Part shown: positions 3,216-39,172 of the stretch, piece after piece
Numbering within the stretch: position 1 is the stretch's first letter
Layout: the number at the start of each line of letters is the position of its first letter
Source of the DNA: Polyangiaceae bacterium
GTDB lineage: Bacteria; Myxococcota_A; Polyangia; Polyangiales; Polyangiaceae
Assembly: GCA_019637295.1 (NCBI GenBank)
Contig: JAHBVX010000002.1
Coordinates: 496,001-560,000 of the forward strand
Length of the DNA: 64,000 bases
Direction of reading: 5' to 3'
Notes under the pieces: generated by a model
Databases searched by the model: none
Told to the model about the DNA's origin: nothing
Seen by the model: the letters and a program-made list of their open reading frames with translations, nothing else
Program-made: the position numbers and the translations under genes

Positions 3216-4166
3216 TCACTCCGCGGGTGCTGGCACCGGCCGACTGGAGCCGAGCGCCGCGTCCTGGCCTTCTTGCTCGAGGCGGGCCCGCCGCGCCAAG
3301 TTCGCCATCGTGCCCTGCAGCTCCGCTAGCTGCTTCTCCAGCTTGCCGAGCTCGTCGGACAGGGTCTCGGGTGCGGCGGCGAGCCCAGCGCGCACTCGGT
3401 CCGCCTCGTGCAGGTCGTCGGCCTCCTTCTGTGCCTCGGTCATGCCGTTCATGATCACGCCGATGAATAGGTTGAGCACGACCATGGTCCCCAGCAGCAC
3501 GAAGGAGACGAAGAAGAGGGCACCGAGGATCGGGTAAGCCTGGGGATCGGTGCAGGAAGGATCACCATCGTAGCCGTAGTTGTTGCAGCCGTACATCTGG
3601 ATGTACATCAGATCCGTCCAGTCCTCGAGCGTCACGGCGCGAAACAGCGAGACGAGCGCGATCTGGAGGTTGCGGAAGTGGATCGGGTCGTTCGCCCCGA
3701 ACAGGAACACTGCGGCCACCGCGTACACGTAAAAGAGCAAGAACAAGAGCAGCGAGACGTAGGCCATGCTCGGGATGCTCTTCAGCAGCGCCGAGACCAA
3801 CAGCTGCAGCTTCGGTAATGCGCGCACGAGACGGAGCACGCGCAGCAGGCGCGCCAAGCGGAGCACCGTCACGTACTGACTACTGATGGGCAAGAACGCC
3901 GCTGCGACGATGATGAAGTCGAACACGTTCCAGTTGTCGCTGAAGAAGCGCCACGGCTTGTTCCCTTCCGCGCCGACCTTCACCAGGATCTCCACGACGA
4001 AGATGCCGAGCACGATCTTGTCGAGCGTGTGGAGCGTGTCGCCGTACTGTGCGACGAGCCCGGGGTAAGTCTCGACCCCCACGAGCACACCCGCGAAGAT
4101 GATTACCCAGGTGACGAAGTTCTGAAACCGCTTCGATTCCGCGATGGTCCGCAAGTATTCCGCCAT
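3216..4166 (-). CDS. voltage-gated cation channel, NaChBac/Nav type
   Basis: 316-aa single-domain (one repeat, tetramer-forming) voltage-gated channel. Six membrane segments are visible: S1 about 16-36, S2 46-64, S3 77-93, S4 about 100-116 with Arg every third residue (103, 106, 109, 112, 115), S5 about 132-156 and S6 about 212-240. The selectivity filter reads TLEDWTD at 179-185, intermediate between sodium-type TLESW and calcium-type TLDDW. A long loop after the filter has two cysteines (194 and 205) that could form a disulfide. The C-terminus (about 265-297) is a predicted coiled coil, as in NaChBac-type channels. ATG 4166 has a good GGGAG site upstream. The transported ion is not certain. 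Confidence 0.88.
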   Translation of the reverse strand: MAEYLRTIAESKRFQNFVTWVIIFAGVLVGVETYPGLVAQYGDTLHTLDKIVLGIFVVEILVKVGAEGNKPWRFFSDNWNVFDFIIVAAAFLPISSQYVTVLRLARLLRVLRLVRALPKLQLLVSALLKSIPSMAYVSLLLFLLFYVYAVAAVFLFGANDPIHFRNLQIALVSLFRAVTLEDWTDLMYIQMYGCNNYGYDGDPSCTDPQAYPILGALFFVSFVLLGTMVVLNLFIGVIMNGMTEAQKEADDLHEADRVRAGLAAAPETLSDELGKLEKQLAELQGTMANLARRARLEQEGQDAALGSSRPVPAPAE

Positions 4167-35171: not shown

Positions 35172-35540
35172 CATTCAGGGATCGTCCATGAGCGCCATGC
35201 AGCCACACGCGGAGCTCATCTTGGACGGCACCAAGCTCGGCTGGCACCTGGAGCGGGTACGAGCTTGGGAGCGAGGCGAGCGGGTCGCACCCATCACCGT
35301 CGACATGGCGCTCACCCGAGCGTGCAACTACGCGTGCCACTTCTGCTACGCGATGCTGCAGGAGAACGAGCGCCATCCGATGACCGGACCGGTCGTCGAA
35401 GCCTTCCTCACCGACGCCGCGGCCATCGGGGTGCGCGGAGTCAGCCTCGTGTCCGACGGCGAGAGCACCCTCTCGCCCGTGTTCGTCGACGCGGTCGTGC
35501 GTGGTTCCGAGCTGGGTCTGAGCATGGCGTGCGGCACCAA
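35011..35540 (+). repeat. 530-bp direct repeat, left copy
   Basis: Matches 45125-45654 without indels; I count 11 mismatches (about 98% identity). It covers the last 53 codons of the 387-aa gene, the 16-bp gap and the first 117 codons of the radical SAM gene. The match breaks off abruptly at 35540, inside a codon. Recombination between the copies would remove 10,114 bp and rejoin the operon. Confidence 0.95.
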
Positions 35541-35613
35541 GGTCCAGGAGTTCGAGGAGTTCTTGCGCTGCGGGCGGCCCGAGCACGGCTGTCTTCACCT
35601 GGTGTGCCGTGAC

Positions 35614-35654
35614 CCCCAGCACCACCACATCCGTGAGGTCGTATCCGGTTCTCG
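35614..35654 (+). repeat. 41-bp direct repeat, left copy
   Basis: Matches 44804-44844 at 39 of 41 positions, in the same orientation. It lies 73 bp inside the left 530-bp repeat; its partner lies 280 bp before the right one. It probably marks the ends of the inserted DNA or of an IS-derived segment within it. Confidence 0.75.
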
Positions 35655-35781
35655 CAGCGCGGCCACGATCGTAGAGTTCCTCCCGGGTCCAGCCCCGGTC
35701 CCCGGTCGAGCCGGCGACAGGCGCGCGACGCTCGTCGTGGCCGGCATCCGACCGGCGCCGTGCGTCGACGAGAGCGGGCGC

Positions 35782-36003
35782 GACTACAGCCCCAGGGTGG
35801 GCTTGCGACACGCGCGCGAGGTCGAGCTCGCGCTTCGCGCGCCAGCAGAGAGAGCGGTCCACCTCTCCCATGAACGCGCTCACCACCTCGGCGCAGAGCT
35901 TCCGGTCGTAGCCCAGGAGCGCGCGAAGGCCCCAGGGCAGAGAGCAGATCCAGTGCCGGATGGGCACGCGCGGCGTTCGCGTCGAACGCGCTCGCCGCAC
36001 TCG
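35782..36003 (-). mobile_element. IS91-type transposase remnant
   Basis: The minus-strand translation contains RVPIRHWICSLPWGLRALLGY, DRKLCAEVVSAFM and VSQAHPGAVV in one frame, the hallmark order of the IS91/ISCR rolling-circle transposase (RQWVLSFPWxLR..., then HPGAV). Neither the zinc-binding start nor the Tyr-containing catalytic part is intact; about 75 codons remain. The rest of 35541-36038 holds no supportable gene. Confidence 0.65.
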
Positions 36004-36047
36004 AATGGTCTGAGGGGCGTGGCCCAGGAAGGAGGGGGATGATGAAA

Positions 36048-36067
36048 CGGACGCACGGACGCACGGA
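36048..36067 (+). repeat. 8-bp tandem repeat in signal-peptide region
   Basis: CGGACGCA occurs twice in tandem (36048-36055, 36056-36063), then CGGA. With both units, the ATG at 36039/36042 (strong AAGGAGGGGG site) reads to a stop at 36114-36116. Deleting one 8-bp unit puts that ATG in frame with the protease and yields a good lipoprotein signal peptide ending STSVAC. Confidence 0.85.
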
Positions 36068-36112
36068 TTCTGGAGCCGCTCTGCGGCCCTTTGGTTCGCG
36101 GCGCTCGGAGCG

Positions 36113-39100
36113 GTGAGTACGTCGGTTGCTTGTGACAGCGACGACGGCTCGGGTGAGGTCGTCGCACAATCCGCCGAAGAAGTGGGCGGCGGTCTCTTGG
36201 ACACTTCCGACCTCTTCCCGGCGGTGGTCGCGATTGCTCCGGCGGGCGGCGGCATCGAGTCGCGGTTCTGCAGCGGCACGTTGGTGACCCCGAACCGAGT
36301 CGTATCAGCAGCCCATTGCTTTACGCCGAACAGCGTGCTCGGGGCGCTAGACGTCTTGGTAGTGACCCACCCTGGCGGCGTAAAGACGGCCACTCGCTAT
36401 ACGCATCGACCCTCGTTCGCCGGAGGCGTTCAGACAAACGCGATCCGAACATTTGCGACCCCGGGACCCACGGGCGGGGATTCCAACGGTGATATTGCAG
36501 TCATCACGCTCGACAGTCCGGTGCCAGATGTCACGCCGATGGTGGTTGCGACCCCGGATGACCCGTGTCCGCGCACCACGGAGTTCATCGGTAACCTCGT
36601 CGGGTTCGGGCTCACTGGAGCGGCGCCCCCTTCCTGCGGCCTGGTGAACGCTGACGACCGAAGCTGGGCGACCAGCACAGAGTGGGAGTACGACGACCCT
36701 GGGGTGTACTCGAACAACTGGACCTTCACGTCCTACCAGGGCGGCCTTGTGGGTGATTCGGGTGGTGCGCTGCTGCATGGGTCGCGGCTGTGCGGGGTGC
36801 ACTCTCGGCACTCGGGTGTGACCTGCGCCGGACCGCTAGGCGCGATCGACGCGAACTCGTACGCCGCCGCCATAGACGACTGGGACTTGACCGCGACGAC
36901 GAATGTCCCGCTCACGGAGCTAGAGTCCGTCGTCTCCTATGTCGATCCGCGAACGGGCGAGGCTGCATCCGTGGGCAAGTGTCCCCCGAGCTACCTCGCG
37001 CTTCCTGGCGCGAACGCGGCGCTTGGCGTCACCGACTCGGACAGCGACGGCATCCCCGATCTGTGCGACAGCTGTCCGTACAAGCCGAACTTCGGCCAGA
37101 TCCACGCGGTCGAACCGGATCTGGACGGCGATGGCATCCCCGACAAGTGCGACAACTGCCGTCGCGTGGCCAATCGTGCTCCGGCTGGAGTAGCCCAGGA
37201 GTTCGCGCGCCTGTTCCCGGAGCCCGACAGCGACGGCGACGGCATCGGGGACATGTGCGACTGGTGCACGAGCCCCGATCCGCGCGACCACGTGTTCGAG
37301 CAGGAACTCGCGAACTGCAACATCGAGTCGGAGCTCGCATTCCACTACCCGGGGCTGGCCGCGCCCCCAATAGTGACGCTCGGCCCCAACTACAGCGCGG
37401 ACCTGGCCAAGTACCGAGCTGCGTTCAAGCTCGGAACGTGCGATCTGGCGCCCTGCCCTACCATGACGCTGGGCTTCGATGCACCCTTCCCACCCGGAAT
37501 GGAACCGCAAGCCCCGTGCCAACTGCAGGTCCCGCTGCCCCGCACTTGTGGGTGGGCCCTGCGCAACAGCCTGGTTCACCGCCCCAAACCTTCGCCCGAG
37601 ACGGTGGGCGAGGTCGGACGCGTGCACGCGAAGTGGTGTGAGTGCCCGTTCGATGTCTCGACGGTCAACGGAAGGGTCATGTGCCAGGCGGACCCGTACT
37701 TCTGCCGGGGCGTGCAAACTCAGTTCGAATTCGAACAGTGGCGGGAGCTCGAGACGGCTCGCGTCTCCGGGCCGCTGGTGGACTGGAGCCAGGCCGGACC
37801 CGAAACCTACAGCTACCCGATGGTCGACGCGGTCCAGGTGCACAGCGCCTGGAACTTCTTCGCGCTCGGCACGCCGTACTTGAAGCACAAACCGACCGGA
37901 GGCCCGTTCCTCCCCGGGGTTCACAACCCCGAGGACGCTTCGGTCCACGGCATGCTGTGGAACGCCGTGCGCGAGATGGAGAAGTTCGCGCCGGGCAGTC
38001 CCCAGCACGCGGAGATCCAGGAGCGCGGTAACCACTACGAGCGTGGCGACGCGTCGTACGAGATCCACGCCAAGGTGTTCATTACCGCGCCCGTGAACAC
38101 CTCGCTCGACCTGCACTACCCCTGCAAAGACTGCCCGTTCCTGTCGCTCACCAATTTGATGATCGATCCGACGCTGGTCAGTCCGACCCTCGACGTGCTG
38201 CCGGTGTTGGTGAGTCCAACACGCACGCTCGTCAGTCCGGAGCTGCTCACGACCGCGGCGCGCGAGGACCTCTTGGCATCGCAGCGCGGCGAGCTGCGCA
38301 TCGTGACCAGCGTGGAGAGCCCCGGGCTGCTGGCGGAGCTCACCGGCGCTGGCGCGCTGCTTCGCGGTATCGTGCTCAGGCCGACCAACGGCGCGCCGGT
38401 CCGTGTCCTTGCGCAGACGTCGCTCAACGGCCTGCTCGGATCGGTGCCGCTGGTCCGGGACGACCGGATCGATCTGGCGCAGTCGGCGGACCCCACGGAG
38501 GTGGGTCTGGCCAGTCTGACGCTGGCCGAGCCCGAGAGCGATCAGGAGGCACCCGGCGCTTTCGCGGAGGGTGAGGCGTTGGTGTTCAGCGCCGAGCATG
38601 GCCTCTTGTATCGCTTTGGTGGCAAGCACCCGAGCGTCGCCGCGACCGCATGGATCTACGAGGTCGCGAACGGTCGCTGGACGTCCGTAGGCCTCGACGG
38701 CCAGCATCGCCCGGGCAGCGTGAGAGCCGGGACGTTCCAGCGCGCGGATGGCTACGTGTATGCGCTCGACGCACCCCCGACGGGCCCGGGTGGCCCGGTG
38801 CAGCTTCGCCGTTGGCGGCCCGGCACGCGACAGTTCGAGTCAGTGGTGCGTTGGACTGGCGCGATGAAGAACTTCAATCGCTACTGGGTCGTGCCCTCCG
38901 ATGGCGGGGACGTATACGTGGTCGCGTCCAAGCCCGGCTCGTCGGCCATCCAGCGCTTCGAGCGCTTGCCGAGCGGAGCGCTGAACTTCGTGGGTGTCCA
39001 CTTGCTGGCGGCCGAGATCCTCGAACGACCGTTCACCACCAACGGGACGATCGGCTTCGTGGTTCACGCTCCGGTGAGCGGCGCAATCGAGCCGTTCTCG

Positions 39101-39172
39101 GGCGTGCGGCTGGACCACGTCGCCGTCAGCGGCATCCGCGCCAAACCCAAGGGCTTCGTGCCCTCGAAGTGA
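36113..39172 (+). CDS. secreted trypsin-like protease with TSP3 repeats (signal out of frame)
   Basis: The open frame starts at GTG 36113 (1019 aa), but the signal peptide is encoded just before it with no start codon in frame; see the 8-bp repeat. Trypsin-like domain about 15-260: SAAHC (His), NGDIAVITL (Asp), GDSGGALL (Ser), all intact. Next come calcium-binding thrombospondin type-3 repeats (about 300-390: DSDSDGIPDLCDSC, DLDGDGIPDKCDNC, DSDGDGIGDMCDWC), a Cys-bearing middle region, and a kelch-like C-terminal half (LYRFGGKHP). It lies within the inserted DNA and its stop overlaps the next lipoprotein gene. It could be silenced by the frameshift as sequenced. Confidence 0.8.
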   Translation: MSTSVACDSDDGSGEVVAQSAEEVGGGLLDTSDLFPAVVAIAPAGGGIESRFCSGTLVTPNRVVSAAHCFTPNSVLGALDVLVVTHPGGVKTATRYTHRPSFAGGVQTNAIRTFATPGPTGGDSNGDIAVITLDSPVPDVTPMVVATPDDPCPRTTEFIGNLVGFGLTGAAPPSCGLVNADDRSWATSTEWEYDDPGVYSNNWTFTSYQGGLVGDSGGALLHGSRLCGVHSRHSGVTCAGPLGAIDANSYAAAIDDWDLTATTNVPLTELESVVSYVDPRTGEAASVGKCPPSYLALPGANAALGVTDSDSDGIPDLCDSCPYKPNFGQIHAVEPDLDGDGIPDKCDNCRRVANRAPAGVAQEFARLFPEPDSDGDGIGDMCDWCTSPDPRDHVFEQELANCNIESELAFHYPGLAAPPIVTLGPNYSADLAKYRAAFKLGTCDLAPCPTMTLGFDAPFPPGMEPQAPCQLQVPLPRTCGWALRNSLVHRPKPSPETVGEVGRVHAKWCECPFDVSTVNGRVMCQADPYFCRGVQTQFEFEQWRELETARVSGPLVDWSQAGPETYSYPMVDAVQVHSAWNFFALGTPYLKHKPTGGPFLPGVHNPEDASVHGMLWNAVREMEKFAPGSPQHAEIQERGNHYERGDASYEIHAKVFITAPVNTSLDLHYPCKDCPFLSLTNLMIDPTLVSPTLDVLPVLVSPTRTLVSPELLTTAAREDLLASQRGELRIVTSVESPGLLAELTGAGALLRGIVLRPTNGAPVRVLAQTSLNGLLGSVPLVRDDRIDLAQSADPTEVGLASLTLAEPESDQEAPGAFAEGEALVFSAEHGLLYRFGGKHPSVAATAWIYEVANGRWTSVGLDGQHRPGSVRAGTFQRADGYVYALDAPPTGPGGPVQLRRWRPGTRQFESVVRWTGAMKNFNRYWVVPSDGGDVYVVASKPGSSAIQRFERLPSGALNFVGVHLLAAEILERPFTTNGTIGFVVHAPVSGAIEPFSGVRLDHVAVSGIRAKPKGFVPSK

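Follow-up and report, generated by a model that had tools for sequence, protein, structure and literature searches.

A candidate start-codon repeat switch before a trypsin-like protease gene of a Polyangiaceae bacterium

A repeat tract between a start codon and a protease frame

The window, that is the whole stretch of 64,000 nucleotides analysed here, belongs to a member of the Polyangiaceae, a family that forms part of the Myxococcota, and lies on contig C12 of an assembly of 7.65 Mb in 25 contigs (genome G000). It harbours a gene of 1019 codons whose product, according to Pfam, contains a Trypsin domain (PF00089, E 8e-12, residues 35–251) together with thrombospondin type 3 repeats (TSP_3, PF02412). 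The motifs AAHC, GDIAV and GDSGG are recognizable by eye in the translation and provide the His, Asp and Ser residues of an S1 trypsin-like protease. The features of the locus are as follows.

35900–35974, minus strand: 75 bases of IS91-type debris matching contig C15 of G000 at 96% identity; an upstream neighbour that lies outside the switch (sequence match)
36029–36038, plus strand: purine run AAGGAGGGGG, a strong ribosome-binding-like site (sequence)
36039–36116, plus strand: ATG 36039/36042 and a frame of 25 codons ending in TGA (36114–36116), the OFF product (translation)
36047–36067, plus strand: repeat tract of 2.6 perfect octamers ACGGACGC, alternatively 5.25 degenerate tetramers ACG[G/C] (TRF, exact-run scan, degenerate-tetramer scan)
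36068–36133, plus strand: hydrophobic signal peptide and lipobox SVAC (Cys codon 36131–36133), encoded in register with the protease but out of register with the ATG (frame reading)
36113–39172, plus strand: protease open reading frame from its first in-frame GTG, with the Trypsin PF00089 domain and TSP_3 PF02412 repeats (ORF list, Pfam)

Translation from the ATG yields MMKRTHGRTDSGAALRPFGSRRSER and then meets a stop. The protease reading frame spans 36014–39172, behind a stop just upstream of 36014, and offers GTG 36113 as its first ATG, GTG or TTG. The tract, 21 bases long (ACGGACGCACGGACGCACGGA), begins three to four codons past the ATG and is perfect (TRF: period 8, 2.6 copies, 100%). Downstream of it the protease frame reads GFWSRSAALWFAALGAVSTSVAC, a signal peptide with a lipobox as judged by eye. 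Given the hydrophobic segment, the lipobox SVAC and the trypsin domain, the product is predicted to be exported or surface-exposed. A preliminary description of this DNA had reported a ribosome site leading to ATG 36039/36042 and a stop after 25 codons, a protease frame devoid of an ordinary start before GTG 36113, and an 8-bp tandem repeat behind the start: the sequence, the ORF list, the translation and TRF bear out all three.

The tract displays several attributes of a phase-variable locus: it is perfect, its unit is not a multiple of three and it sits at the 5' end of a coding frame. Reading of the frames indicates that a change in unit number would shift the protease into or out of the register of the start. 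As the phase repeats every three units, the ON state corresponds to 1, 4, 7... octamer units and the present number of two-plus to OFF. The earlier assignment of one unit to ON and two to OFF thus holds, but the accompanying idea that three more units would give another frame does not, since the phase recurs every three. It had also been remarked that two units are few, and rightly so: 2.6 octamers (or 5.25 degenerate tetramers) compare with a minimum of three units from which octanucleotides were counted in a survey of Haemophilus influenzae (PMC2651432), a minimum that is a survey threshold and not a definition. Of 200 simulations under an order-3 Markov model of the window, 1 contained a period-8 run of the observed length, 7 a comparable run of some period of 4–11 other than a multiple of three, and none (ACG[C/G])5.

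The DNA upstream of the protease (35188–36042) contains a truncated radical SAM open reading frame (PF04055, weak match) followed by the debris matching contig C15. The open reading frame of C15 at the matching site shows similarity to the zinc-binding domain of IS91 transposases, and on this likeness the debris is seemingly an old insertion just upstream of the protease.

Start tracts in the same genome and in homologous proteases

A location-blind scan was performed on 1.66 Mb of the 7.65-Mb genome, window included, for exact tracts with runs of at least 12 and any period of 4–14 except multiples of three. A tract was classed as a start tract if an ATG lay within 30 bases upstream and was followed by an open frame of at least 60 codons with a hydrophobic stretch. 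The scan returned 24 tracts, and nine of them pass this rule; at random places the figure is 1947 of 20000. Inspection by eye upholds five of the nine as start tracts: the window tract, L031 (6 × ATCACGC), L043 (7.25 × ACGC), L092 (a compound ACTCACGC/ACTC tract) and L374 (4 × GCAG). The other four do not, and the rule therefore yields false positives; it also misses true tracts that lack a ribosome-site match or begin with GTG (L031 and L043 in a dinucleotide scan, L309 in the ACGC test described below). With dinucleotides included, and only then, a further locus passes: L098, a CT tract located inside a signal peptide and in the ON state. Pattern and homology searches added five more start tracts in this genome (L138, L337, L338, L339 and L340). 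Eleven start tracts before exported proteins, the window tract and ten others, are thus present in G000: L098, L138 and L339 are ON and eight are OFF. Three of the targets carry a Trypsin domain by Pfam (the window protease, L337 and L374).

Only two stretches of the 1.66 Mb, the window tract and L043, show the degenerate pattern (ACG[C/G])n with four or more units, in both cases just past the ATG of an exported protein. The window octamer is therefore readable as a degenerate form of the ACGC tetramer used by other switches of this genome. Among the eleven tracts of G000 with fewer than three copies, the window tract alone convinces, and low copy number by itself goes with no clear enrichment at starts.

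Homologues of the protease are widespread: 42 of 59 genomes, its own included, match the protein, the others not closely, and the search of these genomes disclosed no close orthologue. A search of genome contigs likewise gave no relative close enough for tract lengths to be set side by side. In an exact-repeat scan of 19 homologue loci (L007–L025), tracts were detected in four, three of which are start tracts that separate the ATG of a trypsin-like protein, which they follow directly, from its signal peptide: 5.5 copies of the octamer CACCGCAG at L008 (G017), 15.1 copies of the heptamer GAACGGC at L009 (G033) and 7.3 copies of the heptamer GCACGCA at L010 (G014). All three are OFF: a stop is met in the ATG frame and the protease frame is in a different register. 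These three homologues belong to other Polyangiaceae genomes.

Distribution and copy-number differences across the family

The heptamer ACGCAGC in at least four copies was sought in 108 family genomes and is present in five (G000, G014, G067, G068 and G033). Among the matches listed, 17 of 17 distinct tracts follow an ATG and precede the hydrophobic stretch of an exported protein, and G067 has more. Outside the family the proportion passing the rule is 7 of 76, again among the matches listed. The latter figure stems from a named-genome set of at least 80 loci with 81 tracts, 77 of them outside four Polyangiaceae records and eight of these passing; removal of L179, whose DNA is apparently that of L279 in G068, a genome of the family, reduces 8 of 77 to 7 of 76. 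Random places pass in 266 of 3000 instances in family loci and 283 of 2370 in outside loci. Fisher's test on 17/17 versus 7/76 gives 2e-13 among the matches listed, a value that serves only as a guide because tracts within one genome are not independent events. The tetramer ACGC in at least six copies was found in 8 of the 108 genomes, and 12 of 16 distinct tracts pass the start-tract rule (L307, L309, L314 and L354 fail it). Among the targets, Pfam matches are most often to Trypsin (the window protease, L337, L374, L341, L342, L351, L289 and L010).

A separate exported-protein family of about 1000 residues is represented at L344, L345 and L346 (G068) and at L353 (G014), with 6.75–11.25 ACGC copies behind the start, all in the OFF state; the L346 protein has no Pfam match.

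The distribution is patchy. The sole genome of the same genus as G000, G001, exhibits neither the ACGCAGC nor the ACGC tract pattern. The 400 kb scanned of another relative, G020, contain no convincing start tract, which indicates that not all of the family shares the feature. Sampling of 372 kb from G033 likewise gave none, though two homology-found loci of that genome bear long tracts. Homologues of the L031 and L043 proteins were also searched for tracts, and none was seen in those of L031 (L157–L159).

Differences in copy number between paralogues are clean in two pairs. L350 and L355, both in G014, have tracts of 48 and 55 bases, exactly one 7-base unit apart and with the phase changed; their proteins share 89 of 93 residues, and 268 of the 283 bases downstream agree. 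L345 and L346 in G068 are three 4-base units apart with the phase unchanged, and 366 of 400 downstream bases are identical. Most other pairs differ by non-whole units, so that changes in the flanks are mixed in. Two G000 loci occupy opposite states: L126 (the same locus as L043) has 7.25 units and is OFF, L138 has 11.75 units and is ON, and the proteins are 76% identical.

If ON is defined as an in-frame ATG within 30 bases, 8 of 37 start tracts are ON and 29 are OFF. One third ON would be expected for freely drifting tract length, and the observed share is close to this (two-sided p 0.16). The list of 37 mixes location-blind and homology-found loci, and L132 and L150, which are one place, were counted once.

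Interpretation of the window locus

The tract sequence and the frames around it, the recurrence of the same arrangement at many loci and the copy-number differences between paralogues are direct observations. The reading that they favour with reasonable probability is that the window locus is a translational ON/OFF simple-sequence-repeat switch, currently OFF, belonging to a set of start-codon repeats akin to opa and pilC of Neisseria. Ribosomes would start at ATG 36039/36042 and then enter the tract, whose units of 8 (or degenerate 4) bases could be added or removed by slipped-strand mispairing. As the unit is not a multiple of three, each one gained or lost changes the frame that enters the signal peptide. 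In the present, putatively OFF state translation would end after 25 codons; a tract of 1, 4, 7... octamer units would allow synthesis of the trypsin-like protease with its lipoprotein signal peptide. The locus would then be a short-tract member of a switch set placed before secreted proteases and other exported proteins in G000 and other Polyangiaceae.

Slipped-strand phase variation had been put forward in the preliminary description. For the gene class the proposal is strongly supported, on account of the same gene type (trypsin-like, TSP3) and position, the longer tracts, the paralogue differences and the mixture of ON and OFF states; to the window locus it extends only by inference, as do slippage as the cause, reversibility and a useful rate of switching at this tract. 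With only 2.6 units, switching here may be slow or rare, or the gene may simply be frameshifted; within the set, the tract may have shrunk or may have grown only recently. It also seems somewhat probable that several environmental Polyangiaceae genera possess a large set of start-repeat switches, the window gene included, by which secreted proteases and other exported proteins are turned ON and OFF at random in single cells.

The main rival is an ordinary frameshift, in which a chance duplication of 8 bases broke the start of a single-copy lipoprotein gene and left a fresh pseudogene; its likeness to the longer start tracts would be a coincidence, or would reflect ACGC-rich leaders that are prone to slippage. 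We regard this as unlikely, albeit a serious contender. A single 8-base duplication would look identical to a tract of only 2.6 units, the IS91-type debris disturbs the upstream DNA, and low-copy tracts show the lack of clear enrichment noted above. Nor is the regained signal peptide extra evidence for a switch, as removing any duplication restores the older frame. Against the frameshift, the gene is otherwise intact, with 1019 codons and its trypsin motifs; the (ACGC)-like tract type is found elsewhere in the 1.66 Mb only at another start switch; and homologues have the long form of the tract at the same place. The ATG frame would be irrelevant if the protein were made regardless of the tract, with translation beginning at GTG 36113 or at some non-standard codon of the protease frame. 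GTG 36113 is indeed the first usable start of the 1019-codon frame, but initiation there would forfeit the hydrophobic segment of the lipoprotein signal peptide, the strong ribosome site precedes the ATG and not the GTG, and relatives keep the order of ATG, tract and signal peptide: this explanation is improbable. Least probable of all is an assembly or consensus error that misstates the unit number, since 21 bases are far below any read length, tracts of 42–83 bases were assembled in the same genome, and an error would hardly recreate an arrangement present at many loci. No sign of a programmed ribosomal frameshift was noted.

The switch envisaged here is of a known kind. The opa genes of Neisseria carry CTCTT repeats where the leader peptide is encoded, and the frame sets them ON or OFF (PMC3960869). 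The likeness consists in a unit that is not a multiple of three in the signal-peptide region of an outer-surface protein, with the frame determining the state (PMC3960869); the Polyangiaceae loci differ in their units of 4, 7 or 8 GC-rich bases, in the shortness of the window tract, in targets that are unrelated secreted proteases and lipoproteins of environmental Myxococcota, and in being known from sequence alone. The neisserial pilC1 and pilC2 genes, as described in PMC13190605, also undergo frameshift switching within the signal-peptide-coding region, mediated there by a poly-G homopolymer and here by oligomer units. In H. influenzae the chief mediators are tetranucleotides, with heptanucleotide tracts varying as well; both types lie near or in genes, several loci per genome, and their length sets frame or expression (PMC2651432), as proposed here. 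In that host-adapted pathogen the units are AT-rich, whereas in the large environmental genome considered here they are rich in GC and mostly precede genes for secreted enzymes. According to PMC4692102, which also cites an N-terminal enrichment of repeats across prokaryotes, many bacteria have an excess of heptameric repeats, a class that has received little study. The heptamers of Xanthomonas and Nostoc treated there are over-represented between genes (PMC4692102), whereas those of Polyangiaceae lie past the ATG of exported-protein genes.

In the open-licence literature searched, no paper was found that describes phase variation by repeats in Polyangiaceae. An earlier paper reportedly deals with phase variation in Myxococcus xanthus. 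Pathogens adapted to a host supply the best-known cases of phase variation by repeats, and there the explanation is immune escape. In environmental myxobacteria with large genomes the same arrangement precedes secreted proteases, and an immune system is not available as the explanation. Of most interest is the occurrence of such a set of putative switches in a family of environmental predators. If they function, random single-cell switching would decide on the output of secreted enzymes, a kind of shared goods, only a fraction of the cells would at any one moment contribute to the common digestive arsenal, and division of labour, bet-hedging and avoidance of phages or predators would become testable with ordinary reads. 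For automatic annotation there is a warning, as such genes appear broken or bereft of a signal peptide though they may merely be OFF in the sequenced clone.

Other tract types and other lineages furnish three further observations. At L131 (positions 800–900, G017:C281), a homologue of the L043 protein, a run of ten G lies just past the lipobox region and the remaining gene is in another frame, a possible homopolymer switch. At L135 (positions 428–465, G057, a member of another family), eleven G stand between TTGACA and TTAATAT upstream of a metallopeptidase-lipoprotein homologue and possibly constitute a length-dependent promoter switch. In a Planctomycetota metagenome-assembled genome, L219 (positions 3260–3314) contains 7.9 copies of the ACGCAGC heptamer right after the ATG of an 843-residue exported protein, in the OFF state, and the start-tract arrangement may thus exist outside Myxococcota too.
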